From Aquitalea aquatica (GTDB lineage: Bacteria; Pseudomonadota; Gammaproteobacteria; Burkholderiales; Chromobacteriaceae), in the NCBI RefSeq assembly GCF_013911085.1, contig NZ_JACERN010000024.1:98744-162743 (forward strand): 64,000 nucleotides of DNA. The letters run 5' to 3'. Every line of letters begins with the position of its first letter. The stretch's first letter is position 1. Of this stretch, positions 1,678 to 22,259 are shown in pieces. The translations under genes and the position numbers were made by a program. Under the pieces are notes generated by a model. That model did not search any database, had not been told where the DNA came from, and was given only the letters and a program-made list of their open reading frames with translations.

Positions 1678-4600
1678 GTGTCCGCAGAGCCGCCATCTCC
1701 CCCACAGCAAGTCATCCAGCTGCGCCGCGATTACAACAGCTGGGTAGCGCGCGAATCGCTGGAAGACTATGCGCTGCGCTTTACCCCGCGCCGCTTTCGC
1801 CAGTGGTCGCTGTGGCGGGTGGCCAATACCGCGCTGGGCGGGGCGGCCTCGTTTCTGGTGCTGGAAGCGGTGGGTGCCACAATGCTGGTGCAGGCCGGGT
1901 TCTTTAACGCCTTGCTGGCCATCCTGCTGACCGGGCTGGTGATCCTGCTGGCCGGCCTGCCGATTTCGGTATATGCCGCCCGCTACGGCGTGGACATGGA
2001 TTTGCTGACCCGTGGGGCTGGTTTCGGCTATATCGGCTCCACCGTCACCTCGCTGATCTACGCCTCCTTCACCTTCATCTTTTTTGCGCTGGAAGCGGCC
2101 ATCATGGCCTATGCGCTGGAGCTGGGCTTTGGTATTCCGCCAGTGGCCGGCTACTTGTTGTGCGCCTTGCTGGTGCTGCCGCTGGTCACCCACGGTGTCA
2201 CCGCCATCAGCCGTTTGCAAAGCTGGACCCAGCCCTTGTGGCTGCTGCTGTTGCTGCTGCCCTATGGCTTTGTGCTGTGGCAGGAGCCGACCGCCGTGCA
2301 GGGCTTGTGGCATTACCCTGGTGCGCACGGTGCGGGTACGCACTTCGATCTGCGCAGTTTTGGTGCAGCGTTTGCGGTGGGCATTGCACTGATTACCCAG
2401 ATGGGCGAGCAGGCCGATTATCTGCGTTTCATGCCGCCGCGCACCGCCGACAATGCCCGCAGCTGGTGGCTGGCCTGCCTGCTGGGCGGGCCGGGCTGGG
2501 TGCTGCCGGGGGTGGCCAAGATGCTGGGCGGCGCACTGCTGGCCTGGCTGGCGCTACGCAATGCCGTGCCGCTGGCCAAGGCGGTGGACCCGAACCAGAT
2601 GTATCTGATCGGCTATTCCCATGTATTCAGCGATGGCCGGCTGGCCATTGCCGCCACCACGCTGTTTGTCATCGTGTCGCAGCTGAAGATCAACGTCACC
2701 AATGCCTATGCCGGCAGCCTGGCCTGGTCCAATTTCTTTTCCCGGCTCACCCACAGCCATCCGGGCCGGGTGGTGTGGGTGGTGTTCAATACGCTGATTG
2801 CCCTGCTGCTGATGGAGCTGGAGGTGTTTCAGGCATTGGGACAGGTGCTGGCCTTGTACAGCAATATCGCCATTTCCTGGATCATGGCGGTGGTGGCGGA
2901 TTTGCTGATCAACAAGCCGCTGGGGCTGAGTCCGCCGGGCATCGAGTTCCGCCGTGGCTATCTGTACGACATCAATCCGGTGGGCCTGGGCGCGATGGCG
3001 CTGGCGTCGCTGCTGGCGGTGGCCGCCCATCTGGGCGCGCTGGGCGAGACGGCACAGGCGCTGTCGCCACTGGTGGCCATGTGTACGGCCTTGCTGTTGT
3101 CGCCCTTGTTCGCCTGGCTCAGTGGCGGGCGCTATTATCTGGCGCGCCGCCCCTCCGGCATGCAGCAGGCGCGCTATCGCTGCGTGCTGTGCCAGCGCGA
3201 ATACGAGGCGGAAGACATCGTCGGCTGCCCGGCCTATCAAGGCCATATCTGCTCGCTGTGCTGCACACTGGATGTGCGCTGTGGCGACCTGTGCAAGCCG
3301 CAAGCCACGCTGGCGGCGCAATGGCAGGGTCTGTTGCAGCGCCTGCTGCCGCGTGGCCTGCAACCGTATCTGAAACGCGGGCTGGGGCATTACCTGTTGC
3401 TGATGACCGGCATCACCGCTTTCTTGCTATTGCTGCTGGGCCTGTTGTATTTCATCGCCCGGCAGGAGGGTGCAGTGGCCGGCCTGTCCGGCCTGCTGTT
3501 CCGCCTATTTGCCGTGCTGCTGTTGGCCAGCAGCGTGCTGGCCTGGTGGATGGTGCTGACCCGCAATAGCCGGCAGGTGGCGCAGGAAGAATCGCGCCGC
3601 CAGACGCGCCTGCTGCAACAGGAAATCGATTCACACCGCCAGACCGACCTGCTGCTGCAACAGGCGCGTGAAGCGGCCGAACAGGCCAATCAGGCCAAGA
3701 GCCGCTATGTCACTACCATCAGTCACGAGCTGCGTACTCCGCTCAACAGCATGCTGGGTTATGCGCAGATTCTGCATGCCGATGCCAGCCTGCCACCGGC
3801 AGCACGCCAGGCGGTGGAGGTGGTGTACAAGAGTGGCGACCACTTGCTGTCGGTGATCGAAGGCACCATGGACATTGCCCGCATCGAAAGCGGCAAGCTG
3901 ACACTGGACATGCGGCCGCTGGACTTTACCGCCTTCATCAAGCAACTGGTGGCCATGTTCAGCCTTCAGGCACAGCAAAAAGGGCTGGATTTCCGCTTCG
4001 AACCGCAAGGCGAGCTGCCGGCGGTGGTGCGCGCCGATGAAAAACGGCTGCGGCAGATCCTGATCAACCTGCTGGGCAATGCGGTCAAGTTCACCCTGCG
4101 CGGCGAGGTTAGCCTGGGGCTGCGCTATCAGCGCGAAATGGCCACCTTTACCATCCGCGACAGCGGGCCGGGGATGGCCGCCGAAGACCAGGCGCGGCTG
4201 TTCGAACCCTTCGAGCGCGGCCGCCAGTCGCAGCAGGGCGGCAGCGGGCTGGGGCTGACCATCAGCAAGATGCTGACCGACCTGATGGGCGGCGAAATCC
4301 GCCTGGACAGCACGCCGGGGCAGGGCGCGCTGTTTACCGTGCGCCTGTTCCTGCCCGCGCTCATCGGCCAGCAAGCCGAACAGGCCGTGCCACGGCTGCA
4401 GCGCACCGGCTATGCCGGGCCGCGCCGTCGCCTGTTGCTGGTGGACAACGAAGCGGTGGACCGCGCCATGCTGGGCCGCATGCTGCAGCCGCTGGGGTTT
4501 GAACTGGCCGAGGCCAGTAGCGGCGAAGCCTGCCTGGCGCAACTAGCCAGCTTTCGCCCGCATGCAATCTTCATGGACCTGGCCATGCCGGGCATGGACG

Positions 4601-5067
4601 GCTGGCAAACCTTGCGGGCCATCCGTCAGGCCCAGGCAGGCATGGCCGATGCGGCCGCGCTGGCCATCATCTCGGCCAATGCCTTTGAAAAGGGCCAGGA
4701 CAACGACGTGGGTATTCTGCCGGCAGATTTCTTCGTCAAACCCATCCGTATCGACGACATCCTCGACTGGCTGGGAAAACGTTTGCAGCTGGCATGGCAC
4801 ACCGACAGCCAGCCGGCCGCCGTCGTGGCACTGCAGCCGCTACACGCCAGCGCAGCGGCATTGAGCCTGCCGCCAGCCGATTTGCTGCAACCCTTGCTGG
4901 AGGCGCTGCAACTGGGCTACCCCAAGGGGGTGAAGGCGGCCTTGCAAACCCTGGCTGGCCAGACCAGCCAGCATGGCGAATTCCTGCGCCGGGCCGAGGC
5001 GCTGGCGGCAAATTTTCAATTTGATGCGCTGCGCAGCCTGGCGCAGCCGGAAGAGGACCAAGCCTGA
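1678..5067 (+). CDS. Hybrid sensor histidine kinase with an N-terminal NCS1-type permease domain
   Basis: 1129 aa, GTG start. Residues about 20-495 form a polytopic membrane domain resembling cytosine/allantoin (NCS1) permeases. A cysteine cluster follows (C502, C505, C517, C525, C528, C529, C535, C539), then two more transmembrane helices (about 560-625). The kinase core comes next: the HisKA phospho-acceptor is H683 in SHELRTPLN, the ATPase N-box asparagine is about N801, and the glycine boxes are DSGPGM and GSGLGL. A receiver domain carries D967 (FMDLAMPGMDGW) and K1021, followed by a helical C-terminus. Permease-kinase fusions of the CbrA (SSS family) kind are established; here the sensor is NCS1-like. 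It overlaps its response regulator by one base (TGATG) and lies about 6 kb upstream of the urea locus. The ligand (urea, a purine, allantoin or hydantoin) is inference. Confidence 0.88.
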   Translation: MSAEPPSPPQQVIQLRRDYNSWVARESLEDYALRFTPRRFRQWSLWRVANTALGGAASFLVLEAVGATMLVQAGFFNALLAILLTGLVILLAGLPISVYAARYGVDMDLLTRGAGFGYIGSTVTSLIYASFTFIFFALEAAIMAYALELGFGIPPVAGYLLCALLVLPLVTHGVTAISRLQSWTQPLWLLLLLLPYGFVLWQEPTAVQGLWHYPGAHGAGTHFDLRSFGAAFAVGIALITQMGEQADYLRFMPPRTADNARSWWLACLLGGPGWVLPGVAKMLGGALLAWLALRNAVPLAKAVDPNQMYLIGYSHVFSDGRLAIAATTLFVIVSQLKINVTNAYAGSLAWSNFFSRLTHSHPGRVVWVVFNTLIALLLMELEVFQALGQVLALYSNIAISWIMAVVADLLINKPLGLSPPGIEFRRGYLYDINPVGLGAMALASLLAVAAHLGALGETAQALSPLVAMCTALLLSPLFAWLSGGRYYLARRPSGMQQARYRCVLCQREYEAEDIVGCPAYQGHICSLCCTLDVRCGDLCKPQATLAAQWQGLLQRLLPRGLQPYLKRGLGHYLLLMTGITAFLLLLLGLLYFIARQEGAVAGLSGLLFRLFAVLLLASSVLAWWMVLTRNSRQVAQEESRRQTRLLQQEIDSHRQTDLLLQQAREAAEQANQAKSRYVTTISHELRTPLNSMLGYAQILHADASLPPAARQAVEVVYKSGDHLLSVIEGTMDIARIESGKLTLDMRPLDFTAFIKQLVAMFSLQAQQKGLDFRFEPQGELPAVVRADEKRLRQILINLLGNAVKFTLRGEVSLGLRYQREMATFTIRDSGPGMAAEDQARLFEPFERGRQSQQGGSGLGLTISKMLTDLMGGEIRLDSTPGQGALFTVRLFLPALIGQQAEQAVPRLQRTGYAGPRRRLLLVDNEAVDRAMLGRMLQPLGFELAEASSGEACLAQLASFRPHAIFMDLAMPGMDGWQTLRAIRQAQAGMADAAALAIISANAFEKGQDNDVGILPADFFVKPIRIDDILDWLGKRLQLAWHTDSQPAAVVALQPLHASAAALSLPPADLLQPLLEALQLGYPKGVKAALQTLAGQTSQHGEFLRRAEALAANFQFDALRSLAQPEEDQA

Positions 5068-5987
5068 TGGACAAGGCCGCACAACGCAGCGCACTGGTGC
5101 TGATCGTGGATGATGTGCCGGACAATCTGCAGCTGCTGCACGATGCACTGGATGCCGCCGGCCATACCGTGCTGGTGGCCACTCATGGCGAGGCCGCCCT
5201 GCAGCGCGCCCGGCTCAGCCTGCCGGACGTGATCCTGCTGGACGCGGTGATGCCGGGCATGGATGGTTTCGAGGTGGCGCGGCGGCTGAAGGCGGATTTT
5301 GTCACCCGGCCCATTCCCATCGTATTCATGACCGGCCTGACCGAGAGCGAACACGTGGTGGCGGCCTTTGCCGCCGGCGGGGCCGACTATGTCACCAAAC
5401 CGCTGCGGCCGCCGGAAGTGCTGGCGCGCATTGCCGCGCATACCGCCAGTGCCCGCCAGATGCAGCAGGCCCGCAGCGCGCTGGATGCCTTTGGCCAGGC
5501 CACGCTGGCGCTGGACCCGCACAGCGGCCGCCTGCTATGGCAGACCGCGCTGGCCAGCCAGCTGCTGCAGCGCTATTTCGCGGTGGTGGGCGAACAGGCA
5601 CCTGATGCCTTGCTGCGCTGGGCCTTCAACGCCCAGCAGGCCAGACAGGCCGGGCAGGAGCTACCGGGGCAGTGGCCGGGCGAAGCTGGCCAGCGGCTGC
5701 TGGCCAGCTTTCATCTGGTGCCTGGCGAAGCGGAGTGGCTCGTGGTGCTGCGCGAAGATGGCGTGCAGTCCAGCGTGGCGGCGCTGGTGGCGGCTTTCCG
5801 CCTGACCCAGCGTGAGGCCGAGGTGCTGCACTGGCTGAGCCTGGGCAAGACCAATCGCGATATTGCCGAGATCCTTGGCATGAGCCCGCGCACCGTCAAC
5901 AAGCATCTGGAGCATGTATTCGCCAAGCTGGGCGTGGAAACCCGTACCTCGGCGGCCGCCCTGGCGCTGGGGCGCGGCCATGCCTAG
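5067..5987 (+). CDS. Response regulator with receiver and LuxR-type HTH
   Basis: 306 aa. The N-terminal receiver domain (about residues 8-125) has acidic residues in IVDDVPDN, phospho-acceptor D59 in LLDAVMPGMDGF and K111 in TKPL. A linker domain of about 100 residues with no obvious motif follows. The C-terminal LuxR/GerE HTH (about 246-300) contains LTQREAEVLHWLSLGKTNRD and the recognition helix MSPRTVNKHLEHVFAKLGV. The ATG overlaps the kinase stop codon, so the two are translationally coupled and must be a cognate pair. It is a DNA-binding output protein; the target is not visible, but the urea import and urease genes downstream on the same strand are the best candidates. Confidence 0.93.
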   Translation: MDKAAQRSALVLIVDDVPDNLQLLHDALDAAGHTVLVATHGEAALQRARLSLPDVILLDAVMPGMDGFEVARRLKADFVTRPIPIVFMTGLTESEHVVAAFAAGGADYVTKPLRPPEVLARIAAHTASARQMQQARSALDAFGQATLALDPHSGRLLWQTALASQLLQRYFAVVGEQAPDALLRWAFNAQQARQAGQELPGQWPGEAGQRLLASFHLVPGEAEWLVVLREDGVQSSVAALVAAFRLTQREAEVLHWLSLGKTNRDIAEILGMSPRTVNKHLEHVFAKLGVETRTSAAALALGRGHA

Positions 5988-6943: not shown

Positions 6944-7062
6944 GCGCCATCATACCCGGCCGCGCGCCGAGCCGGGTCGCGGTGGCGGGGCTGCCGTGGT
7001 AGATTGCGGCGGTCCGGCCGTGTCGCCTGTTGCGCAGGCCGGCCCCAGTCAGGAGCCTTGCC

Positions 7063-8421: not shown

Positions 8422-8422
8422 C

Positions 8423-9517: not shown

Positions 9518-9581
9518 GCTTGGCTTCCGTCAGTTTGTTGAAACGTGCAGCCTGCGAAAAAGCCGGTGTGCTGGCAAGGGC

Positions 9582-10781: not shown

Positions 10782-10958
10782 AAACAGACTCCATCGACGG
10801 GGAGCCACAGCCTAGCACAAGGACATCGCCGTGCGGCAAGCACGCACCAGCGCCGACCTGCGCATGCATCTACGTCATGTAACGTATTTTGCTGGCCCGG
10901 CGTGGATCGTACTCTGATGACGCAGCGCAACATCCATACCAATCATCAGGGGAATCTC

Positions 10959-12227
10959 ATGGCATCTACTCGTCGCATGTTTCTGAAGTCCGCTCCGCTG
11001 GTCCTGGCCGCCGCCGGCCTCGTGTCCATGCCGGCCTTTGCCGCCGACACCATCAAGGTAGGGGTGTTGCACTCCCTGTCCGGCACCATGGCCATTTCGG
11101 AAACCTCGCTCAAGGATATGGCGCTGTTTGCCATCGACCAGATCAACGCTAAGGGCGGTGTGCTGGGCAAGAAGCTGGAACCGGTGGTGGTGGACCCGGC
11201 CTCCAACTGGCCGCTGTTTGCCGAAAAAGCCCGTCAGCTCTTGAGCAAGGACAAAGTTGCCGTGACCTTTGGCTGTTGGACTTCGGTCTCGCGCAAATCG
11301 GTGCTGCCGGTGTACGAGGAGCTGAACGGCCTGCTGTTCTACCCGGTGCAGTACGAGGGTGAGGAAATGTCGCCCAATGTGTTCTACACCGGGGCTGCGC
11401 CCAACCAGCAGGCCATTCCGGCGGTGGAATACCTGATGAGCAAGGAAGGCGGCAGTGCCAAGCGCTTCTTCCTGCTGGGGACCGACTATGTCTACCCGCG
11501 CACCACCAACAAGATCCTGCGAGCCTTCCTGCACAGCAAGGGGGTGAAGGACGAGGACATCCAGGAGATGTACACCCCCTTTGGTCATAGTGATTACCAG
11601 ACCATCGTCGGCAACATCAAGAAGTTTGCCGCCGGTGGCAAGACGGCCGTCATCTCCACCATCAATGGCGACTCCAACGTGCCCTTCTACAAGGAACTGG
11701 GCAATCAGGGCCTGAAGGCGACCGACGTGCCGGTGGTGGCTTTCTCGGTGGGTGAGGAAGAACTCAAGGGCATCGATGCCAAGCCGCTGGTCGGCCATCT
11801 GGCGGCCTGGAACTACTTCATGAGCGTGAAGAACCCGGTCAACAGCAAGTGGATTGCCGACTACCGCGCCTGGGCCAAGAAAAAGGGCCTGGCCAATGCC
11901 GACAAGCTGGTGACCAACGACCCGATGGAAGCTACTTATGTGGGCATCAATATGTGGGCCGAGGCGGTGAAAAAAGCCGGCACCACCGATGTGGCCGCCG
12001 TCACCAAGGCCATGGCCGGCATCAAGTTTGCCGCCCCGTCCGGCTTCACCCTGGAAATGGACCCGAAAAACCATCACCTGCACAAGCCGGTGATGATTGG
12101 TGAAATCCAGTCCAACGGTCAGTTCTCGGTGGTATGGAAAACCAAGACCCCGATCCGCGCCCAGCCGTGGAGCCCCTTTATCCCGGGGAATGACAAGAAG
12201 CCCGATACCCCGGTCAAGAGCAAGTAA
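10959..12227 (+). CDS. urtA: Urea ABC transporter substrate-binding protein UrtA
   Basis: 422 aa from ATG 10959, with AGGGGAA about 7 bases upstream. The N-terminus carries a Tat-like signal (TRRMFLKS followed by a hydrophobic stretch and AFA-AD), so export in folded form is likely. The mature part is a Leu/Ile/Val-type periplasmic binding fold with UrtA hallmarks: IKVGVLHSLSGTMAISE, FGCWTSVSRKSVLPV and YPVQYEGEEMSPNVFYTGA. It captures urea in the periplasm for UrtBC. It is the first gene of a run urtABCDE-ureDABCEF-GNAT-ureG on the same strand, with a 92-bp gap before urtB that may allow extra UrtA to be made. Confidence 0.96.
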   Translation: MASTRRMFLKSAPLVLAAAGLVSMPAFAADTIKVGVLHSLSGTMAISETSLKDMALFAIDQINAKGGVLGKKLEPVVVDPASNWPLFAEKARQLLSKDKVAVTFGCWTSVSRKSVLPVYEELNGLLFYPVQYEGEEMSPNVFYTGAAPNQQAIPAVEYLMSKEGGSAKRFFLLGTDYVYPRTTNKILRAFLHSKGVKDEDIQEMYTPFGHSDYQTIVGNIKKFAAGGKTAVISTINGDSNVPFYKELGNQGLKATDVPVVAFSVGEEELKGIDAKPLVGHLAAWNYFMSVKNPVNSKWIADYRAWAKKKGLANADKLVTNDPMEATYVGINMWAEAVKKAGTTDVAAVTKAMAGIKFAAPSGFTLEMDPKNHHLHKPVMIGEIQSNGQFSVVWKTKTPIRAQPWSPFIPGNDKKPDTPVKSK

Positions 12228-12319: not shown

Positions 12320-13900
12320 ATGCAATTGTTCAAACCCTTGCTCCTGCTGCTGTTGCTGTACAGCGGCCTGGTGGCGGCCAGCCCGCTGGCCGAGCTGGCC
12401 CATGCCGACCCGGCCGACCGCGCCGGGCTGATCACCCAGTGGACGGTACAGGCCGACGGCCCGCGCCGTCAGGCTGTTGCCGCACTGGAAGAGGGCAGAT
12501 TGTTCAGCAGCACTGATGGCAACCATGTGTTGTTGCAAGGGGTCGACGGCAAGCTCAGCGATGTGGACAACGGCCAGCCGGTGGCTGGCGATGCCGCCAG
12601 TCTGGATACACTGCCGGTCAACAACAGCGTGCGCAGCGCGCTGGAGGCGTTTCATGCCGCCAGCGATCTGGCCGACCCCGAGCGCAGCAAGCGCCTGAGT
12701 GCCATCCAGGCCTTGCAAGACAGTGCCAACCCCGGCCTGCTGCCCTTGCTGCTGAGCCGGCAGCAACAGGAACAGGACAGCCAGGTGAAGCAGGCCTTGC
12801 TGGTGGCCAGCTCCCGTCTGCAACTGGCCAGCCCGGATGCCGCGCAGCGCCTGCAAGCCATCCACACCCTGGCCGACAGTGCCGACCCGGCCACGCAGAC
12901 GCTGCTGGCGCCGCTGGCCGACAGTGCCAGCGAGTCTGACGCCCGCGTGCGGGCGGCGGCCACTCAGGCCGTGGCGGACATCAAAGCCAGCCAATGGCGT
13001 TACAACATGCTGGGCTATGCCTTTAGCGGCATCAGCCTGGGCTCGGTGCTGCTGCTGGCTGCGCTGGGGCTGGCCATCACCTATGGCCTGTTGGGCGTCA
13101 TCAATATGGCACACGGTGAAATGCTGATGATTGGCGCCTACGCCAGCTATGTGGTGCAGAACCTGTTCCGCAGCTGGTGGCCGGGCGCATTCGATGCCTA
13201 TCTGCTGGCTGCGCTGCCGGTGGCCTTTGCCGTCACCTTTGTCATCGGCATGGCGCTGGAGCGGCTGATCATCCGCCATCTGTATGGCCGCCCGCTGGAA
13301 ACCCTGCTGGCTACCTGGGGCATCAGCCTGATGCTGATCCAGGCAGTACGCATGTTGTTTGGTGCGCAAAACGTGGAAGTGGCCAACCCGTCCTGGTTGT
13401 CCGGTGGCTGGGTCATCACCCCGGCACTGACCTTGCCGTACAACCGGCTGGCCATCATTGCCTTTGTCGCGGGCGTACTGCTGCTGACCTGGCTGGCGCT
13501 CAACAAGACCCGGCTGGGCCTGTTTGTGCGCGCGGTCACGCAAAACCGCCGCATGGCCGATAGCGTGGGCGTGCCCACCGGCAAGGTGGACATGCTGGCC
13601 TTCGGCCTGGGCTCCGGCATTGCCGGGCTGGGCGGGGTGGCACTAAGCCAGATCGGCAACGTCGGCCCCGAACTGGGCCAGGGCTATATCGTGGACAGTT
13701 TCATGGTGGTGGTGCTGGGCGGGGTGGGCCAGCTGGCCGGTACCGTGACCGGGGCCATGGGCCTGGGCATCGTCAACAAGATTCTGGAGCCGTCGCTGGG
13801 GGCGGTGCTGGGCAAGATCCTCATTCTCGGCTTCATCATCCTGTTCATCCAGAAGCGTCCGCAAGGCCTGTTTGCCCTCAAGGGCCGGGTGCTGGACTAG
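12320..13900 (+). CDS. urtB: Urea ABC transporter permease UrtB
   Basis: 526 aa. A signal peptide and a roughly 215-residue extracytoplasmic, helix-rich extension with HEAT-like stretches (LPLLLSRQQQEQDSQVKQAL, AAQRLQAIHTLADSADPAT) precede the LivH-type permease domain, which starts about residue 218 (GISLGSVLLLAALGLAITYG). GVINMAHGEMLMIGAYASY and the ABC-coupling region near ARAVTQNRR-like FVRAVTQNRRMADSVGV are typical. The long N-terminal extension is usual for proteobacterial UrtB. It pairs with UrtC to form the urea channel. The start is ATG 12320 with AAGGAAAG upstream, and the stop is 10 bases before urtC. Confidence 0.96.
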   Translation: MQLFKPLLLLLLLYSGLVAASPLAELAHADPADRAGLITQWTVQADGPRRQAVAALEEGRLFSSTDGNHVLLQGVDGKLSDVDNGQPVAGDAASLDTLPVNNSVRSALEAFHAASDLADPERSKRLSAIQALQDSANPGLLPLLLSRQQQEQDSQVKQALLVASSRLQLASPDAAQRLQAIHTLADSADPATQTLLAPLADSASESDARVRAAATQAVADIKASQWRYNMLGYAFSGISLGSVLLLAALGLAITYGLLGVINMAHGEMLMIGAYASYVVQNLFRSWWPGAFDAYLLAALPVAFAVTFVIGMALERLIIRHLYGRPLETLLATWGISLMLIQAVRMLFGAQNVEVANPSWLSGGWVITPALTLPYNRLAIIAFVAGVLLLTWLALNKTRLGLFVRAVTQNRRMADSVGVPTGKVDMLAFGLGSGIAGLGGVALSQIGNVGPELGQGYIVDSFMVVVLGGVGQLAGTVTGAMGLGIVNKILEPSLGAVLGKILILGFIILFIQKRPQGLFALKGRVLD

Positions 13901-13910
13901 GAGCACTATC

Positions 13911-15011
13911 ATGCAATCCGCACTTTCCCTGCGGCTGGCCCACCGTATCGGGCCACTGCCGCTGAAACTGGCAGGTGCTGCGGCACTGGCCGTGTTGCTG
14001 GCCATGCCCGCCCTGCATTTATGGACCGACCCGGCCAGCAGCCTGCATGTGTCGGCCTATACCCTGACGCTGGTGGGCAAGATCCTCTGCTACGCCATCG
14101 TGGCGCTGGCCATGGACCTGGTCTGGGGCTACACCGGCCTGCTCAGCCTGGGCCACGGCCTGTTCTTTGCCTTGGGCGGCTACGGCATGGGCATGTATCT
14201 GATGCGCGCCATCGGCCATGACGGCAATTACCAGAGCGACCTGCCCGACTTCATGGTGTTTCTCGACTGGAAAACCCTGCCCTGGTTCTGGCAGGGCAGC
14301 GAGCACCTGGCCTGGGCGCTGTGTCTGGCGGTGGGCGTTCCCGGCCTGCTGGCACTGGTGTTCGGCTGGCTGGCTTTCCGTTCGCGTATCAAGGGTGTGT
14401 ACTTTTCCATCATGACCCAGGCGCTCACCTATGCCGCCATGTTGCTGTTCTTCCGCAATGAAACCGGCTTTGGCGGTAACAACGGCTTTACCGACTTCAA
14501 GCGCATCCTCGGCTATGGCATTGCCGAGCCAGCCACCCGCGCCACGCTGTTCCTGCTGACCGTGCTGCTGCTGGTGGCAGCGCTGGCTGCCGGTTTCTGG
14601 CTGGTCAACAGCAAGTTCGGCCGCATCCTCACTGCCATTCGCGATGCCGAGTCGCGGCTGATGTTCTGTGGTTACAACCCGCTGTATTACAAGCTGTTCA
14701 TCTGGGTGGCCTCGGCCATGCTGTGCGGCCTGGCCGGCGCACTCTACGTGCCGCAGGTGGGCATTATCAATCCGGGGGAAATGTCACCGGCCAACTCCAT
14801 TGAAATCGCCATCTGGGTGGCGGTGGGCGGGCGTGGCAGCCTGATTGGCCCGGTATTGGGCGCGGGTTTCATCAATGCAGCCAAGAGCTGGTTCACCGTG
14901 GCCTTTCCCGAGTACTGGCTGTTTTTCCTGGGGGCGCTGTTCATTGCCACCACGCTGTTTTTGCCGCGCGGCCTGCTGGGCCTGCTGCGCCGTCACAAGG
15001 AGAATGCATGA
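13911..15011 (+). CDS. urtC: Urea ABC transporter permease UrtC
   Basis: 366 aa from ATG 13911, preceded by AGGAG. A LivM-type permease with about eight to ten helices; key stretches are DLVWGYTGLLSLGHGLFFAL, FGGNNGFTDFKRILGY and the coupling segment AIRDAESRLMFCGYNP. FGGNNGFTDF is characteristic of UrtC rather than of branched-chain amino acid permeases. It forms the second half of the inner membrane urea channel with UrtB. Its stop overlaps the urtD start (ATGATG), indicating translational coupling. Confidence 0.96.
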   Translation: MQSALSLRLAHRIGPLPLKLAGAAALAVLLAMPALHLWTDPASSLHVSAYTLTLVGKILCYAIVALAMDLVWGYTGLLSLGHGLFFALGGYGMGMYLMRAIGHDGNYQSDLPDFMVFLDWKTLPWFWQGSEHLAWALCLAVGVPGLLALVFGWLAFRSRIKGVYFSIMTQALTYAAMLLFFRNETGFGGNNGFTDFKRILGYGIAEPATRATLFLLTVLLLVAALAAGFWLVNSKFGRILTAIRDAESRLMFCGYNPLYYKLFIWVASAMLCGLAGALYVPQVGIINPGEMSPANSIEIAIWVAVGGRGSLIGPVLGAGFINAAKSWFTVAFPEYWLFFLGALFIATTLFLPRGLLGLLRRHKENA

Positions 15012-15844
15012 TGTCCGCCACTACTTCGCAATCGGTACAGCGCGAAAGCTGGGACGGCGATACCGCTGCCAGCGGCCGGCTGTTGCAACCGGGGCTGGAT
15101 GTCACCCATGGGCAGATCCTGTATCTGGACGACATCAGCGTCAGCTTTGATGGTTTTCGCGCGCTCAACCGCCTGTCGCTGTCGATAGCCGTGGGCGAAC
15201 TGCGCTGCATCATCGGCCCCAATGGCGCGGGCAAGACCACCATGATGGACGTGATTACCGGCAAAACCCGTGCCGATAGCGGCTCGGCCTTTTTCGGCCA
15301 GACCATCAATCTGGCCCAGCATTCCGAGGCGGAAATCGCCCAGCTGGGCATAGGCCGCAAATTCCAGAAGCCCACCGTGTTCGAGGCGATGACGGTGCAG
15401 GAAAACCTGGAACTGGCGCTGGCCGGACCGCGTTCGGTGTGGGCCAGCCTGCGCGCCCGCCTGACCGGTCAGCAGCGCGACCGTATCGACGAATTGCTGA
15501 CGCTGATCCGCCTGGGCGAGCAGCGGCAGCGGCTGGCCGGGCTGCTGTCGCATGGCCAGAAACAGTGGCTGGAAATCGGCATGCTGCTGGCGCAGGAGCC
15601 GCAACTGCTGCTGCTGGACGAGCCGGTGGCCGGCATGACCGATGCCGAAACCGAAAAGACCGCCGAGCTGCTGCTCACCCTCAAGGGCCGGCATTCGCTG
15701 ATGGTGGTGGAACACGATATGGATTTCATCGCCAGCATTGCCGGCAAGGTGACGGTGCTGGCCGAGGGCGCGGTACTGGCCGAGGGCAGCCTGCAGCAAG
15801 TGCAGGCGGATGAACGGGTGATCGAAGTCTATCTGGGGCGCTGA
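15008..15844 (+). CDS. urtD: Urea ABC transporter ATP-binding protein UrtD
   Basis: 278 aa. An ABC ATPase of the LivG type: Walker A GPNGAGKTT, Q-loop region RKFQKPTVFEAMTVQENLEL, signature LSHGQKQWLEIGMLLAQ, Walker B LLLLDEPVAGM and switch histidine VVEHDM. About 35 residues precede the ATPase fold, longer than usual for LivG but normal for UrtD. The start could be ATG 15008 or the adjacent ATG 15011; AGGAG lies at 14998-15002. It energises UrtBC together with UrtE on the cytoplasmic face. Confidence 0.96.
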   Translation: MMSATTSQSVQRESWDGDTAASGRLLQPGLDVTHGQILYLDDISVSFDGFRALNRLSLSIAVGELRCIIGPNGAGKTTMMDVITGKTRADSGSAFFGQTINLAQHSEAEIAQLGIGRKFQKPTVFEAMTVQENLELALAGPRSVWASLRARLTGQQRDRIDELLTLIRLGEQRQRLAGLLSHGQKQWLEIGMLLAQEPQLLLLDEPVAGMTDAETEKTAELLLTLKGRHSLMVVEHDMDFIASIAGKVTVLAEGAVLAEGSLQQVQADERVIEVYLGR

Positions 15845-15845
15845 C

Positions 15846-16544
15846 ATGCTGGACATACAAGAAGTGGAACAATACTACGGCGGCAGCCACATTCTGCGCC
15901 GTGTCAGCCTGCAGGCCGAAATCGGCCAGGTTACCTGCCTGCTCGGCCGCAATGGCGTGGGCAAATCCACCTTGCTGCGCTGTCTGATGGGGCAGCTGCC
16001 AGTCAAAAGCGGCAGCATCCGCTGGCAGGGTGAGGACATCAGCCGCTGCGCGCCGCACCAGCGCGTGGCGCGTGGTATTGCCTATGTGCCACAGGGCAGG
16101 GAAATCTTTGGCCGGCTGACGGTGGAAGAAAACCTGCGCATGGGGCTGGCGCGATTTGGCGGCAAGGCCGGGCGCGAGATTCCGGCCTCGGTGTACGAGA
16201 TGTTCCCGGTGCTGTACGACATGCGCCAGCGCCGTGGCGGCGATTTGTCCGGCGGCCAGCAGCAGCAACTGGCCATCGGCCGGGCGCTGGTCAGCCAGCC
16301 CTCGCTCTTGGTGCTGGACGAGCCGACCGAGGGCATCCAGCCCTCCATCATCAAGCAGATCGGCGAAGTCATCCGCAGCCTGGCGGCGCAGCGCGACATG
16401 GCCATCCTGCTGGTGGAGCAGTACTACGACTTTGCCGAAGCGCTGGCCGACCGCTACCTGGTGATGTCGCGCGGCGAGGTGATCTGCAGCGGGCAGGGCA
16501 GCCAGATGGCCAGCGATGGCGTGCGCGAACTATTGGCCATCTGA
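15846..16544 (+). CDS. urtE: Urea ABC transporter ATP-binding protein UrtE
   Basis: 232 aa. An ABC ATPase of the LivF type: Walker A GRNGVGKST, Q-loop region YVPQGREIFGRLTVEENLRM, signature LSGGQQQQLAIGRALV, Walker B LLVLDEPTEGIQPS. The IQPSIIKQIGEVIR continuation and the VEQYYDFAEALAD form of the switch region are UrtE hallmarks. Begins one base after the urtD stop. Last transporter gene before ureD, with a 60-bp gap that shows no terminator, so read-through into the urease genes is likely. Confidence 0.96.
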   Translation: MLDIQEVEQYYGGSHILRRVSLQAEIGQVTCLLGRNGVGKSTLLRCLMGQLPVKSGSIRWQGEDISRCAPHQRVARGIAYVPQGREIFGRLTVEENLRMGLARFGGKAGREIPASVYEMFPVLYDMRQRRGGDLSGGQQQQLAIGRALVSQPSLLVLDEPTEGIQPSIIKQIGEVIRSLAAQRDMAILLVEQYYDFAEALADRYLVMSRGEVICSGQGSQMASDGVRELLAI

Positions 16545-16604: not shown

Positions 16605-17465
16605 ATGAACATGAACGAGCTGCCCTCTGCCAGCCCCTTGCCGAGCGAACTGCTGGCCGGCTGGCCGGCTGCACTGGAATTGGGCTATGCCGTGGTGCAA
16701 GGGCGCACCGTGCCGGTGCATCGCCGCCATCAGGGGCCACTGCGGGTGCAGAAACACTTTATCGATGGCCACGGCCAGTGCCAGCACATTGTGGTGCATC
16801 CGCCCGGCGGCATGGCCGGGGGCGACCGGCTGACGCTGGACATTCATCTGGCCGAGGGCAGTGCAGTGTTGTTGACCAGCCCCGGTGCGGCCAAATGGTA
16901 CGACGGCTTCGGCCGTGCATCCTCCCAGCAGCTGCGGGTGGAGCAGCTGCCGGGCAGCCTGCTGGAATGGCTGCCACAGGAAACCATTCTGTATGCCGGC
17001 AGCGTGGTGGCGCTGGACAATCACTTTCGGCTGCAGGGCGATGCCCGCCTGCTGGCCGGCGAGGTGATGTGCCTGGGCCGGCCGGCCAGTGCCGAGCGCT
17101 TTGATCGCGGCTGCTGGCAGCAAAGCGGCGAAGTGTGGCGCAACGAACAGCTACTGTGGTGCGAACACAGCCATGTGCCGGGTGACAGCCCCTTGCTGGC
17201 CTCGCCGGTGGGCATGGGCGGCCACAGCGTGCTGGCCACCTTGCTGTGGGCCGGGCCGGACTTGCCGCCCGAGCTGCATCAGGCTTGTCTTGATCTGCCC
17301 TGTGCCGGGCGTGCTGCGGCCAGCCAGTTGCCTGGCGTGTGGCTGGCCCGTTTCATCGGCGACAGTGCCGAGGCAGGCCATCACTGGCTGCGTGCCTGTC
17401 GCGACCTGATCTATCCCTTCAGCCACGGACGTGCGGCCAGCCAGCCGCGCATCTGGGCAAGCTGA
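16605..17465 (+). CDS. ureD: Urease accessory protein UreD
   Basis: 286 aa. The UreD/UreH scaffold that, with UreF and UreG, delivers nickel to the urease active site. Family hallmarks seen: [28 protein letters not shown], the [10 protein letters not shown] segment (commonly T(S/T)xxAxKxY), [14 protein letters not shown] and the C-terminal [12 protein letters not shown]. Length is normal. The ribosome-binding site before ATG 16605 is weak and a second ATG follows two codons later, so the exact start is uncertain by two residues. Confidence 0.95.
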
Positions 17466-17479
17466 CACGAAAGCATTCC

Positions 17480-17782
17480 ATGGAACTGACCCCCCGCGAA
17501 AAAGACAAGCTGCTGATCTTCACCGCCGGACTGGTAGCCGAACGCCGGCTGGCGCGTGGCCTGCAACTGAATTACCCCGAGGCCGTGGCCTATATCAGCG
17601 CCGCCATTCTGGAAGGCGCGCGTGATGGCCGCAGTGTGGCCGAATTGATGCACTACGGCACCACGCTGCTCAGCCGTGCGCAGGTGATGGAGGGCGTGCC
17701 GGAGATGATTCCGGACATCCAGGTGGAAGCCACTTTCCCGGACGGCACCAAGCTGGTCACCGTGCACCAGCCGATAGTCTGA
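17480..17782 (+). CDS. ureA: Urease gamma subunit UreA
   Basis: 100 aa, starting [20 protein letters not shown], which is the canonical UreA N-terminus. [20 protein letters not shown] and [20 protein letters not shown] are hallmark stretches. The gamma subunit is structural: it packs with beta and alpha in the (alpha-beta-gamma)3 enzyme. Separate gamma and beta genes indicate the ordinary bacterial three-subunit urease. It starts 14 bases after ureD. Confidence 0.97.
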
Positions 17783-17811
17783 ATTCGCCGCTTACCTGAC
17801 AGGAGCAACAC

Positions 17812-18117
17812 ATGATTCCAGGAGAAATCCGCGTGCAGGACGGCGAGATCGATCTGAATGCCGGCCGCGCCACCATCAGTCTGGTAGTGGCCAATCGTGG
17901 TGACCGGCCGATACAGGTGGGTTCGCATTATCACTTTGCCGAAACCAATGACGCACTGCTGTTTGACCGTGCCGCTGCGCGTGGCTTCCGGCTGAATATT
18001 GCCGCCGGCACCGCCGTGCGTTTCGAGCCGGGCCAGACGCGCACGGTAGAGCTGGTGGCGCTGGCGGGGGCGCGCCGGGTGTTCGGCTTTCAGGGCCGGG
18101 TGATGGGGGACTTATGA
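17812..18117 (+). CDS. ureB: Urease beta subunit UreB
   Basis: 101 aa starting [19 protein letters not shown], with the family core [40 protein letters not shown] and C-terminal [13 protein letters not shown]. It is a small beta-sandwich subunit that stabilises the active-site flap of the alpha subunit. AGGAG precedes the ATG. Its stop overlaps the ureC start (TTATGA), so the two are translationally coupled. Confidence 0.97.
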
Positions 18118-19814
18118 AAATCAGCAGACAAGCCTATGCCGAAATGTTCGGCCCCACCACGGGCGATGCGGTGCGCCTGGCCGATACCGGCTTGTGGGCG
18201 CAGGTGGAGCGCGACTACACCGTTTACGGTGAGGAAGTGAAATTCGGCGGTGGCAAGGTAATCCGCGACGGCATGGGCCAGGGCCAGGCGTTGGCGGCCG
18301 AGGTGGCCGATACCGTGATCACCAATGCGCTGATCATCGACCACTGGGGCGTGGTCAAGGCGGATATCGGTCTGAAAGCCGGCCGTATCGCTGCCATCGG
18401 CAAGGCTGGCAACCCGGACATCCAGCCCGGCGTGGACATCGTCATCGGCGCGGCAACGGAAATCATCGCCGGTGAAGGCATGATCGTCACCGCCGGCGGC
18501 ATCGATACCCATATCCATTTCATCTGCCCGCAGCAAATCGAAGAAGCGCTGGCCTCCGGCATCACCAGCATGATAGGTGGTGGCACCGGCCCGGCCACCG
18601 GCACCAATGCCACCACCTGCACGCCAGGGCCGTGGCATATGGCCAATATGCTCAAGGCGGCGGAAGGCTTTGCCATGAACCTGGGCTTTACCGGCAAGGG
18701 CAATGCCAGCCTGCCGGAAGCACTGCGCGAACAGGTACGTGCCGGGGCCATCGGCCTGAAGCTGCATGAAGACTGGGGCAGCACCCCGGCCGCCATCGAC
18801 AACTGCCTGAGCGTGGCCGACGAGATGGACGTGCAGGTGGCCATTCACACCGACACCCTGAATGAATCCGGTTTTGTCGAGGCCACGCTGGCGGCGTTCA
18901 AGGGCCGCACCATCCACACCTATCACACCGAGGGGGCCGGTGGCGGCCACGCGCCGGACATCATCAAGGCCTGCGGCTTTGCCAATGTGTTGCCCAGCTC
19001 CACCAATCCCACGCGGCCGTTTACCGTCAACACCATCGACGAGCATCTGGACATGCTGATGGTGTGCCACCACCTGGACCCGGCCATTGCCGAGGATGTG
19101 GCTTTTGCCGAAAGCCGCATCCGCCGCGAAACCATTGCCGCCGAGGACATCCTGCATGATCTGGGTGCGTTTGCCATGATGTCTTCCGACAGCCAGGCCA
19201 TGGGTCGGGTGGGGGAAACCATCCTGCGTTGCTGGCAGACGGCGGACAAGATGAAGCAGCAGCGCGGCCCGCTGGCAGGCGATGGCGAGGGCTGCGACAA
19301 CGCCCGCATCAAGCGCTATATCGCCAAGTACACCATCAACCCGGCCATCACCCATGGCATCAGCCACGAGGTGGGCAGTATCGAGGTGGGCAAGCTGGCC
19401 GACCTGGTGCTGTGGAAGCCGATGTTCTTTGGCGTCAAACCTTCGCTCATCCTCAAGGGCGGCATCATCGCCATGGCGGCCATGGGCGATGCCAATGCCA
19501 GCATTCCCACCCCGCAGCCGGTGCATAGCCGGCCGATGTTCGGCAGCTTTGGCAAGGCCATTGCCGATGGCAGCGTCACCTTTGTCTCCCAGGCTGCGCT
19601 GGATGCCGGCATCGGCCAGGCGCTGGGGCTGAGCAAGCGGCTGGTGGCTGTGCAAAACTGCCGCAGCGTGCAAAAGACCGACCTGATCCACAACGACTAT
19701 CTGCCGCAGATCGAGGTGGACCCGCAAAACTATCAGGTGAAGGCCGATGGCCAGCTGCTGTGGTGCGAACCGGCCACCAGCCTGCCCATGGCGCAGCGCT
19801 ATTTCCTGTTCTGA
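18114..19814 (+). CDS. ureC: Urease alpha subunit UreC (catalytic)
   Basis: 566 aa, a full-length amidohydrolase that splits urea to ammonia and carbamate at a di-nickel centre. Visible active-site elements are the metal ligands in [14 protein letters not shown], the lysine to be carbamylated K216 in GLKLHEDWG with H218, the flap MVCHHLD (C318, H319), and the aspartate ligand in [12 protein letters not shown]. No key residue is missing. Numbering runs one short of the Klebsiella enzyme (K217, C319, H320). It overlaps ureB by four bases. A 68-bp gap then leads to ureE. Confidence 0.98.
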
Positions 19815-19882
19815 GCGTGGAGCAATCAGGACGTGGCAAGTAGTGTTTCTTTGGATGGAAAAGAAGAAAGAGAGGCAGGAAA

Positions 19883-20380
19883 ATGCTGATCATCAATCAA
19901 CGGTTGGAACAGGCCGCCGGCTGGGATGCCGAGCTGCGGCTGACCTTCGAGCTGCGCAGCAAAACCCGCTTGCGTACCCGCGCCAGTAATGGCGAAGAAG
20001 TTGGCCTGTTTCTGTCGGCAGGCGCGCCACTGGCCGATGGTCAGCTGCTGCTGGCCGAAGACGGGCGGGTGCTGCGGGTGCTGGCGGCCGACGAGCCGCT
20101 CATGCATGTGCGCTGTGCCAATGCCCAGGAGCTGTGCCGTGCTGCCTACCATCTGGGCAATCGCCATGTGCATCTGCAGGTGGGCGATGGCTGGCTGCGG
20201 CTGCTGGACGACAGCGTGCTGGAACAGATGCTGCAACAGCTGGGTGCCGAAGTGAGCCGCCTGCAGGCACCATTCCACCCGGAAAGTGGTGCCTACGGTG
20301 GCGGCCATCATCATTCGCACGGCAAGGATGCGGCCTTCCAGTACGCGCCGAAGCTGCATCTGTTTGGCCAGCCGGCATGA
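19883..20380 (+). CDS. ureE: Urease nickel metallochaperone UreE
   Basis: 165 aa. An N-terminal peptide-binding domain (MLIINQRLEQ, KTRLRTRASNGEEVGLFLS) is followed by the metal-binding domain (CRAAYHLGNRHVHLQVGDGW, where the H of NRHVHL is the conserved interface metal ligand). A short C-terminal tail has GGGHHHSHG, an abbreviated version of the His-rich nickel-storage tail of Klebsiella UreE. It hands nickel to UreG. Preceded by AGGCAGGAAA. Its stop overlaps the ureF start (CATGA). Confidence 0.95.
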   Translation: MLIINQRLEQAAGWDAELRLTFELRSKTRLRTRASNGEEVGLFLSAGAPLADGQLLLAEDGRVLRVLAADEPLMHVRCANAQELCRAAYHLGNRHVHLQVGDGWLRLLDDSVLEQMLQQLGAEVSRLQAPFHPESGAYGGGHHHSHGKDAAFQYAPKLHLFGQPA

Positions 20381-21060
20381 CGGCACTGCTGCCCCTGTTG
20401 CAACTGCTGCGGCTGGCTAGCCCCGGCCTGCCGATTGGCGGCTTCAGCTATTCGCAAGGGCTGGAAAGTGCGCTGGAGCTGGGCTTGGTGCACGATGCCG
20501 CCAGCGCCCGCCGCTGGCTGGGGGATGTCTTGCAAGGCCCGGTGTGCGAGTTTGATGCCACCGTGTTGGTGCAGTCGCTACGGGCGCTGGCTGCCGCTGA
20601 TGCAGTGGAACTGGCCCGGCTCAACCAGCGCTATCTGGCCAGCCGCGACAGCCGCGAACAGCGACAGGAAACCGTGCAGATGGGCTATTCCCTGCGCCAG
20701 CTGCTGGCCAGCCTGCCGGAAAACCAGGCCATGTGCTGGCCTGCGGGCTTGGCGGGCGAGGAAATCTGCCTGCCCACGGCCTGGGCCGTGGCGGCGCAGA
20801 TGCTGGGTATTGCCGAGCGCGAAGCGGTCACCGCTCTCTTGTGGAGCTGGCTGGAAAACCAGGTCATGGTGCTGCTCAAGGCCATGCCCATGGGACAGAC
20901 TGCCGGCCAGCAACTGCTGTCTGCGCTGTTGCCGGCGCTGGCCACTGCGGTAGAGCGCGCCATCAGCCTGCCCGCAGCACAACACAGCAATTTTGCCCCC
21001 GGCCTGATGTGGGCGGCGATGAAACACGAAACCCAATACAGCAGGTTGTTCCGATCATGA
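20377..21060 (+). CDS. ureF: Urease accessory protein UreF
   Basis: 227 aa from ATG 20377, overlapping the ureE stop. Family hallmarks: LLQLLRLASPGLPIGGFSYS near the start, QGLESALELG, YLASRDSREQRQETVQMGYS and the C-terminal SNFAPGLMWAAMKHETQYSR LFRS-type end. UreF bridges UreD and UreG in the maturation complex and gates GTPase activity. Normal length. An 84-bp gap to the following acetyltransferase gene has no terminator-like hairpin. Confidence 0.95.
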   Translation: MTALLPLLQLLRLASPGLPIGGFSYSQGLESALELGLVHDAASARRWLGDVLQGPVCEFDATVLVQSLRALAAADAVELARLNQRYLASRDSREQRQETVQMGYSLRQLLASLPENQAMCWPAGLAGEEICLPTAWAVAAQMLGIAEREAVTALLWSWLENQVMVLLKAMPMGQTAGQQLLSALLPALATAVERAISLPAAQHSNFAPGLMWAAMKHETQYSRLFRS

Positions 21061-21144
21061 GCCAGTGCACGGCCTGCTTTCCTGTTACGCGGTTGTGGCA
21101 AGGTCTTGGCCCTGTGTTTCCGCATTCTGAAAAAGCCTGACACC

Positions 21145-21651
21145 ATGCAAATCATCATCGATGACCTGACCGACCCGCGCGTGCATGCGCTGCTGCAAGA
21201 GCATCTGGCCGGCATGTATGCCAACTCGCCAGCGGAAAGCGTACACGCGCTCGACCTGTCCGGCCTGAAGGCCGCAGCGCTCACCTTCTGGACCGCGTGG
21301 GAGGGCGAGGAGGTGCTGGGTTGCGGCGCGCTCAAACAGCTGGACCCCACGCATGGCGAAATCAAATCCATGCGCACCGCTGCTGCCCATCTGCGCAAGG
21401 GCGTGGCGCAGTGCATTCTGGCGCAGATCCTGCACACGGCGCAGCAGCGTGGCTATCAGCGGCTCAGCCTGGAAACCGGCAGCACTACGGCATTCCTGCC
21501 CGCCCTGGCGCTGTATGAAAGCTTTGGCTTTAGCCGCTGTGGGCCGTTTGCCCATTACCGTGAAGATCCCTTCAGCATCTTCATGAGCCTGCAAATCCAG
21601 GCTCCCTTATCCGCCACCGTATCACCACAACAAAAAGGACATCCGGCATGA
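21145..21651 (+). CDS. GNAT-family N-acetyltransferase within the urease operon
   Basis: 168 aa from ATG 21145. A compact GNAT fold: [20 protein letters not shown], a beta-strand [20 protein letters not shown], then [19 protein letters not shown] (the acetyl-CoA pyrophosphate loop, in a divergent form) and the C-terminal [19 protein letters not shown]. It resembles the YsnE/YjdJ-type small acetyltransferases. It lies between ureF and ureG, on the same strand, and its stop overlaps the ureG start (GCATGA), so it is translated as part of the urease operon. The acceptor substrate is unknown. No strong ribosome-binding site precedes the start. Confidence 0.87.
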
Positions 21652-22259
21652 AACAGAGCGCACTTCGCGTGGGCATTGGCGGGCCGGTCGGCTCGGGCAA
21701 GACCCATCTCACCTGGGCGTTGTGCAGCGCCCTGCGCGACATCTACAACGTGGCCGTGGTCACCAACGACATCTACACCCAGGAAGACGCGCAGTTCCTG
21801 GTGAAGAATGAAGCCCTGTCACCAGACCGCATCATCGGTGTGGAAACCGGCGGCTGTCCGCATACTGCCATCCGCGAGGATGCGTCCATCAATCTGGAGG
21901 CCGTGGCACGGCTGAATGCGCGCCATCCGGGGCTGGACGTGATCTTCATCGAAAGCGGCGGCGACAATCTGGCGGCCACCTTCAGCCCGGAGCTGTCCGA
22001 TTTCACCATCTACGTGATCGATGTGTCCGCCGGCGACAAGATCCCGCGCAAGGGCGGACCGGGTATTTGCAAGTCGGACCTGTTGGTGATCAACAAGATC
22101 GACCTGGCACCGCTGGTGGGTGCCTCGCTGGACGTGATGGAGCGTGATGCGCGCAAGATGCGCGGCGAGCGGCCGTTTGTGTTCAGTAATCTGAAAAGCG
22201 GGCAGGGGCTGGCCGACATCATCGCCATCATCGAAGAGAAGGGCATGCTTAAGCTGTAA
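21648..22259 (+). CDS. ureG: Urease accessory GTPase UreG
   Basis: 203 aa. A SIMIBI-class GTPase that powers nickel insertion into urease. P-loop GPVGSGKT (residues 12-19), switch region [13 protein letters not shown], the metal-binding [17 protein letters not shown] (the invariant Cys-Pro-His), [15 protein letters not shown] and the guanine-specificity motif NKIDLAP are all intact. The ATG overlaps the stop of the acetyltransferase gene. It is the last gene of the run and is followed by a repeat copy and a strong bidirectional terminator. Confidence 0.97.

Follow-up and report, generated by a model that had tools for sequence, protein, structure and literature searches.

What does a histidine kinase sense when its N-terminal part has the fold of a permease, and which genes does it control? 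The question is raised by a locus of Aquitalea aquatica in a stretch of 64,000 nucleotides (contig NZ_JACERN010000024.1, positions 98,744 to 162,743 of the forward strand; hereafter the window), in which the gene of a hybrid histidine kinase with an NCS1-like domain is followed by that of a REC-LuxR response regulator and, farther downstream, by genes for urea import (urt) and urease (ure). From the comparison of this locus with its relatives, we consider it probable that both proteins form a two-component system (TCS), in which the NCS1-fold domain acts as a sensor of urea or short-chain amides and the regulator activates the urtA-ureG operon via a palindrome. The features on which this reading is built are the following (aa, amino acids):

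1678..5067, + strand: hybrid histidine kinase with an N-terminal NCS1-fold domain; GTG start, 1129 aa; H683 (phospho-acceptor) and D967 (receiver) assigned by motif
1729..3147, + strand: NCS1-fold permease domain, about aa 18-490; AlphaFold model, with Mhp1 and CodB as nearest solved folds
3181..3300, + strand: eight-cysteine segment (C502, 505, 517, 525, 528, 529, 535, 539)
3370..3561, + strand: two further helices before the kinase (helices 559-596 and 603-643 of the model), presumably located in the membrane
3694..3894, + strand: HisKA, aa 673-739, E 3.9e-16
4036..4353, + strand: HATPase_c, aa 787-892, E 2.3e-28
4435..4767, + strand: C-terminal receiver (REC) of the hybrid kinase, aa 920-1030, E 1.2e-13
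5067..5987, + strand: REC-LuxR response regulator; ATG start, 306 aa; D59 (receiver) by motif, N278 in the DNA-binding helix
10870..10887, + strand: predicted operator CTACGTCATGTAACGTAT, an 18-bp palindrome of 22.0 bits, 72 bp before urtA

HisKA, HATPase_c and REC occur in one chain, the partner protein combines REC with GerE/LuxR, and the kinase motif SHELRTP as well as the receiver aspartates are present. The two open reading frames (ORFs) share a single base, A5067, within TGATG. The original prediction for this locus, made from the sequence, had described a 1129-aa permease-hybrid kinase in one-base overlap with a REC-LuxR gene, and both ORFs and their domains were confirmed; it had not mentioned the segment with eight cysteines (aa 502-539) or the additional helices that precede the kinase. 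Genes were called by codon-usage scoring; longest-ORF calling yielded shadow genes. On a contig of Aquitalea palustris, a permease domain 99.7% identical to that of the window is encoded.

A predicted operator in front of urtA

The regions upstream of the kinase genes frequently share a dyad. Among 57 such non-redundant upstreams, TACG-8-CGTA is present in 25 and in none of four shuffled sets, in which the commonest dyad of any kind reaches 14-15 of 57; the operator consensus in the kinase upstreams is ATACGTCAnnTGACGTAT. The matrix used for scanning comprises 27 sites from other bacteria, none of them from the window's own family (Chromobacteriaceae); a single site, that of a second Curvibacter copy, belongs to the best-80 set of loci. 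It was applied to 3.18 Mb of loci, and nothing at or above 14 bits was found in 0.93 Mb of shuffled sequence. The 64-kb window holds one operator site, with a next best score of 10.5 bits, and TACGTCANNTRACGTA, with at most one mismatch, occurs at a single place in the 4.46-Mb genome of the window, before urtA (the reversed control pattern has one match).

In the window and the best-80 set, 19 of the 23 urtA upstreams outside the matrix carry the site, two of them belonging to congeners of the window, and four (L049, L053, L081 and L096) are without it at 13 bits. Altogether 35 sites were found there, located before urtA (20), the kinase gene (8), ureA (2), urtB (2) or none of these (3). Further kinase genomes of the Chromobacteriaceae have the site before urtA in 11 of 11 cases, five being congeners. 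The predicted operator before urtA-ureG would thereby tie the regulator to the urt and urease genes, as originally proposed. The same proposal had considered control of the intervening transporters (7030-10808), which we do not retain: no other site in the window exceeds 10.5 bits, and these genes are not recurrent neighbours. The protein encoded at 7030-8421, between the regulator gene and urtA, is a TAXI/NMT1-like solute-binding protein; no TRAP membrane partner was found among the neighbouring proteins scanned.

The site is also found before urtA genes that lie away from the kinase. Of the 19 best-80 loci without ure or urt genes in view, 13 were followed to their genomes (11 with long flanks, 2 cut), a urtA being called distant when it lies outside the flank read (at least 8.5 kb on both sides in ten, one contig-limited), which does not imply another replicon. 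UrtA is encoded elsewhere in 11 of these 13 genomes, six of the 11 being Zoogloea, and the site stands before the gene in 11 of 11, at 15.9-22 bits; two weaker UrtA-like paralogues in the 13 genomes are without it. In the kinase-negative control, 0 of 40 urtA genes carry the site at 15 bits and 1 of 40 at 13 bits (40 of 72 available genomes, two cut by contig ends). A pattern search over whole genomes gave 17 sites in kinase-positive genomes, spread over 16 of the 18 searched, and none in 16 kinase-negative ones; 16 of the 17 lie beside the kinase gene or urtA, and the remaining one, the second palindrome of genome G656 (G656:C1:4639971-4639986), is found about 10 kb from the kinase gene, past the urt-formamidase genes. 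Two single cases were recorded besides. Locus L140 has a perfect consensus palindrome before the kinase gene at its position 1059, at a contig end, and L263 has a palindromic variant, GTACGCCACCCGGCGTAC, at 654 before a distant urtA, with a matrix score of just 7.1 bits.

Downstream of the predicted operator, the window continues as follows:

10910..10915, + strand: -10-like hexamer TACTCT, 22 bp after the operator
10960..12227, + strand: urtA, urea ABC transporter substrate-binding protein; TIGR03407 at 586.4 bits, cut-off 492.75
12320..16544, + strand: urtB, urtC, urtD, urtE; urtB by TIGR03409, the row by order and homology as in L142; urtC start uncertain
16605..22259, + strand: ureD, ureA, ureB, ureC, ureE, ureF, an extra ORF, ureG; gene order as in L142, the extra ORF left aside
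21145-21651: the ORF between ureF and ureG, which we take to resemble an acetyltransferase

The start of urtA was moved from 10902 to the ATG at 10960, which is preceded by a GGGGA ribosome site. The urt genes thus lie downstream as originally described, at a gap of about 5 kb from the regulator gene and not at about 6 kb. From urtA to ureG all genes run in one direction with no gap above 92 bp, and therefore one site could govern both uptake and hydrolysis. The spacing of the site to the putative promoter is largely fixed: after 72 urtA-side sites, which are distinct, but include related species, TAnnnT follows at 22 bp in 33 and at 23 bp in 4 cases, and at any other distance from 16 to 29 bp in at most one. 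On the kinase side, TAnnnT at 22 bp is found after 13 of 50 sites. No consensus sigma-70 promoter was found in the urtA upstream region. With a transcription start some 7 bp past the hexamer, predicted near 10922, the palindrome would have its midpoint at about -43, which is a usual position for activators touching the polymerase.

Moreover, the kinase and the urea genes occur together. Among 61 genomes of the Chromobacteriaceae, UrtA is present in 19 of 19 with the kinase and in 1 of 42 others (Fisher 7e-15, in a test that, like those below, ignores shared ancestry; one of the 19 UrtA is a fragment at a contig edge). Kinase calls required matches below E 1e-50; of the 27 genomes with any match, 8 with weak ones (E above 1e-10) were excluded. 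Since UrtA is found in all 19 kinase genomes while UreC is found in 27 genomes of the 61 when E below 1e-30 is required, or in 28 at E 0.001, the kinase tracks uptake more closely than urease. The single kinase-negative genome with UrtA, G031 (L143), has a 68-residue regulator fragment (10260-10463) before urtA and a palindrome of 23.4 bits at 11125, which would read as a recent loss of the kinase. At the level of the class (369 genomes), UrtA is present in 14 of 18 genomes bearing the kinase family and in 72 of 351 others (Fisher 8e-7), and UreC in 16 of 18 and 69 of 351, respectively (Fisher 2e-9), the 18 including G339, with a stand-alone permease only, and G098, with a fragment. The original prediction had counted a failure of the fusion and urt genes to occur together in related genomes among the grounds for its refutation; the two strongly co-occur. 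Taken together, linkage, the genome-unique palindrome, the fixed promoter spacing and the site before distant urtA genes in one related group lend comparative support to a link from the regulator via the palindrome to urtA. For the predicted target in this genome, the comparative evidence is strong.

The NCS1-like domain and its candidate ligand

The assignment of the permease domain draws on its modelled structure. The AlphaFold model covers residues 1-644 and was built from 61 sequences (pLDDT 75.4, pTM 0.73). With the model of the domain, Foldseek returns Mhp1 or CodB chains at ranks 1-5 (E 1e-7 to 9e-6), and structure comparison (VIA) gives Z 29.4 for CodB (7qoa) and 27.6 for Mhp1 (2x79); the best non-NCS1 structures reach 24.8 and 23.9, and one Mhp1 entry (2jln) just 23.6. 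SSS structures rank under NCS1. SLC5 is absent from the Pfam hits of the domain, though Pfam misses NCS1 as well: at E up to 10, the window domain draws three unrelated weak families (best E 0.027) but not PF02133, and in none of 61 family members is any Pfam family found in the permease part at E 0.01. A search of the window's own genome with PF02133 found two other proteins, the kinase not being among them, and assignment via this model was rejected. A stand-alone relative in L135, 47% identical to the window domain, scores 31.7 bits against PF02133 (cut-off 23.5), three other stand-alone relatives remaining under the cut-off. By hhalign, the two NCS1 proteins of the own genome match the domain with E 3.5e-5 and a probability of 72% (L002) and with a probability of 2% (L001), and the stretches DYxR[YF]xP and NAYxG are common to the domain and these proteins. 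Given the missing Pfam match, NCS1 membership therefore rests on the fold and on one bridging relative (L135). As modelled, the domain is an NCS1-like fold, of a branch mostly missed by the Pfam model; of the full NCS1-like permease that had been predicted, the fold stands, with CodB and Mhp1 nearest, and the match to the Pfam NCS1 model does not.

Positions conserved at 99% or more among 96 relatives longer than 1000 aa make up 34% of the permease domain, 33% of HisKA and 25% of HATPase, and because the permease domain is conserved as strongly as the kinase core, the reading frame is more than chance. Furthermore, the residues kept in both fused and stand-alone proteins span long stretches of the domain. 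Between permease and kinase, in the place that STAC takes after the transporter of CbrA and CrbS, lies the eight-cysteine, partly stranded segment. All eight cysteines are kept in 61 of 61 family sequences; of four stand-alone permeases, the one in L131 has all eight and the other three have C502, C505, C525 and C528 only. The segment may be cytoplasmic and metal-binding. As an isolated query (segment pLDDT 68), it gave no fold match at E<=0.001 and weak zinc-finger-like hits only, and for this reason metal binding is not claimed.

The ligand is approached via relatives of the same subfamily that lack a kinase:

L106, 7950-9557: stand-alone permease before ureEFGJDABC
L107, 7914-9557: stand-alone permease beside formamidase
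L131, about 9812-11443: stand-alone permease beside formamidase
L135, about 9095-10777: stand-alone permease ending a ureDABCEFG row

Two of these records are annotated 'allantoin permease'; by their context, the proteins are likely urea or amide permeases. In L131, the regulator-kinase pair lies opposite a row of permease, FmdA, FmdB and nitrilase genes, and in Burkholderia vietnamiensis opposite urtABCDE, FmdA, FmdB and nitrilase genes, so that the permease takes the place of the five-gene importer. In a quick tree, rooted at the midpoint, the four stand-alone proteins form one group (SH-aLRT 98), and the urease and formamidase labels need 7 changes. As far as the excerpts available for this and the other cited sources go, a formamidase-linked urt-like transporter has been argued to carry amides (PMC3098086), and amide carriage has likewise been suggested for a Pseudomonas cluster (PMC13209695). 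The occurrence of these stand-alone relatives in operons for urease or formamidase is the chief ground for proposing that the fused domain binds urea or a short amide, and the evidence for urea or short-chain amides as the putative ligand is moderate. From the list of ligands in the original prediction, urea is kept by context and is widened to short-chain amides by the formamidase-linked kinases; purine, allantoin and hydantoin gain no support, as no opened neighbourhood pointed to them in scans that were aimed at urea and amide genes.

Proposed mechanism and its alternatives

In the proposed mechanism, urea or a short-chain amide would bind to the NCS1-fold domain, which would drive the attached kinase, the signal passing via the cysteine segment and the two helices. 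The kinase would then phosphorylate the REC-LuxR regulator, which, upon phosphorylation, would bind the palindrome at 10870-10887, recruit the polymerase and activate the urtA-ureG operon, and the proteins for importing and hydrolysing urea would be made when urea is present. The ligand, the direction of regulation, DNA binding by the regulator and phosphotransfer are steps that we infer.

Several alternatives share parts of this scheme. The regulatory link may be right and the input different, namely nitrogen status, ammonium, membrane energy or the Urt transporter, with the permease fold reduced to a degenerate anchor. Such an input would suit the cysteine segment as a separate possible point of entry, a domain too diverged for the Pfam NCS1 model and the separate importer that is usually present (urt genes near 39 of 43 loci of the phylum sample described below, one on weak ATPase matches only). 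Against it stand the conservation of the permease domain at the level of the kinase core, the residues it shares with stand-alone proteins over long stretches, and the occurrence of stand-alone relatives, free of any kinase part, in operons for urease or formamidase; we regard this explanation as unlikely. A stronger form of the preferred reading makes the fused domain a full transceptor, which would transport urea or an amide and signal, as has been reported for CbrA with histidine. The stand-alone members look like transporters by context and the SLC5 domain of CbrA has been described as competent for histidine uptake (PMC13022988), whereas transport would be redundant in most fused copies of the phylum sample because they adjoin a Urt importer; we consider the transceptor possible, if somewhat doubtful.

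That the regulator could instead be a repressor, released by phosphorylation, is suggested by the proximity of the palindrome to the presumed promoter, which it could block. Activation is favoured by the position of the palindrome, whose midpoint would lie about 43 bp ahead of the start presumed from the -10-like hexamer, by the lack of a consensus sigma-70 promoter at the site and by the use of a -52 to -36 site by the activator CrbR (PMC5715377), and repression appears improbable. Least credible of all is that the kinase belongs to a mobile island, being carried along with urea genes while regulating something else: its patchy distribution (19 of 61 Chromobacteriaceae genomes) and many plasmid copies would fit this, but not the palindrome before urtA in 11 of 11 genomes without urt or ure genes at the kinase locus, against 0 of 40 kinase-negative ones at 15 bits.

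For the sensing of urea or amides and activation via the palindrome, which we prefer, a number of observations have to be set on the other side. The reversed pattern, used as a chance control, gave 15 matches in the same 34 genomes as the whole-genome search. Other kinase-positive genomes contain eight urtA copies, distant from the kinase gene or placed on a different contig, before which no site scores above 7.1 bits; two of these genomes hold another, kinase-linked urtA. Among best-80 loci with urease and no urtA in view, 26 of 37 are without a site at 13 bits, and direct control of those urease genes is therefore unsupported. Of the 43 loci read in the phylum sample, 9 lack a site at 13 bits near the kinase gene or urtA, many of the other 34 having contributed to the matrix, and the class loci L132-L134, L136, L138, L139, L144, L145 and L148 are likewise without one. 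Residue 278 of the regulator was set aside as a determinant of the half-site: its raw association is strong (N in 30 of 34 TACGT loci and in 2 of 18 TACGC loci) and in keeping with direct base reading by the DNA-binding helix, but with 3-6 independent pairs only, it is not significant. The Fisher tests on co-occurrence take no account of shared ancestry, and the kinase genome L042 and the partial one L067 showed no urtA. Both copies of G197 and the copy of L139, from the class sample, adjoin no urea or amide gene, and neither do L134, L140, L144 and L145 within the stretch covered, several of these stretches being short. Finally, no alignment column cleanly parts urease-linked from formamidase-linked domains, so that the ligand may be either urea or an amide; position 328 was among the better candidates, and so was 275, with I in 78% of formamidase-linked domains and V in 4 of 5 urease lineages.

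Distribution and comparison with known systems

At least 577 confirmed stretches in the genome collection match the family. In a phylum-even sample of Pseudomonadota, it is present in 41 of 339 genomes with 45 matches, of which 43 loci were counted, the other two being the window and G167, where the kinase gene faces ureABCEFG. Urt, urease or formamidase genes lie within about 10 kb in 41 of the 43, and the other 2 loci end at contig borders. Two neighbourhoods dominate: one with urtABCDE and/or urease, the other with divergent urtABCDE followed by formamidase FmdA, FmdB and often a nitrilase; G656, G635 and G569 hold one kinase of each kind per genome. In the best-80 loci, ure genes or urtA are nearby in 61 of 80, and in 38 of the 49 that have long flanks on either side.

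Some members stand out by their setting. Of 528 records matching the permease domain of the family, 342 are Klebsiella plasmid records; the IncFIB plasmid of Klebsiella pneumoniae in L105 carries kinase and regulator genes with a urt-like importer and formamidase, near heat-shock genes. In Sinorhizobium meliloti (L108), a kinase-regulator pair adjoins urtABCDE. In L139 (G092), a row of several kinase and receiver pieces surrounds the family member. L218 and L220 encode shorter, diverged kinases (40-41% identical) near formamidase, alongside which neither a full LuxR regulator nor a palindrome at 13 bits was found.

On balance, we lean slightly towards the view that these proteins represent a widespread, undescribed class of urea and short-chain-amide receptors in Pseudomonadota, in which the NCS1-like fold serves both as stand-alone permease and as kinase input, with an operator of its own, and which controls the import and hydrolysis of urea and formamide on chromosomes and plasmids. 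The literature cited here describes transporter-kinase fusions with SLC5 or ammonium-transporter folds, to which, if this view is right, an NCS1-fold class would be added, complete with a presumed ligand, a target operon and a defined operator, and occurring in roughly one of every eight Pseudomonadota genomes sampled. It would also offer a specific mechanism by which urt and urease genes respond to urea, suggest that NCS1-type permeases import urea or amides, and allow the step from transporter binding to kinase switching to be tested with cheap ligands on a promoter that holds one site.

A search of the open-access literature, with subscription papers outside its scope, brought up no description of a kinase fused to an NCS1 domain, nor any of this operator. 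The 2009 genome paper of Dechloromonas records a histidine kinase of 1131 aa and a receiver protein of 308 aa adjoining UrtA, which the available excerpt does not discuss (PMC2907700); by size and place, they are probably the same kind of pair. The formamidase-linked urt-like ABC transporters belong to a cluster type that is accompanied by the kinase here, and the excerpt of their description names no sensor kinase (PMC3098086).

Among characterized systems, the nearest analogues are RpuS/RpuR, CbrA, the ammonium sensor kinase and CrbS/CrbR. RpuS/RpuR is comparable in that the importer under its control, MctP, is dedicated and separate from the fused sensor, which acts via a promoter motif (PMC9100948); in contrast, it uses SLC5-STAC, a direct repeat and pyruvate. 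CbrA likewise unites transporter and kinase in one chain (PMC13022988). It differs in its SLC5 histidine transporter family, its STAC and PAS linker and its partner. The ammonium sensor kinase, presumably the one named Ks-Amt5, also bears a nitrogen-compound permease on a histidine kinase, but with the ammonium transporter fold, with ammonium as its signal and in an anammox bacterium. The fusion of permease and kinase in this sensor has been described (PMC5764959). There is also a likeness in architecture to CrbS/CrbR, in which a transporter-fold domain is attached to a hybrid kinase, the regulator is of the LuxR type and an inverted repeat at -52 to -36 is needed for activation, which agrees with the operator geometry proposed here (PMC5715377). 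The two systems differ in that SLC5 and STAC are found there, and an NCS1 fold and an eight-cysteine segment here, in the sequence of the operator and in the genes controlled, which concern acetate in CrbS/CrbR and would concern urea or amides in the system of Aquitalea.

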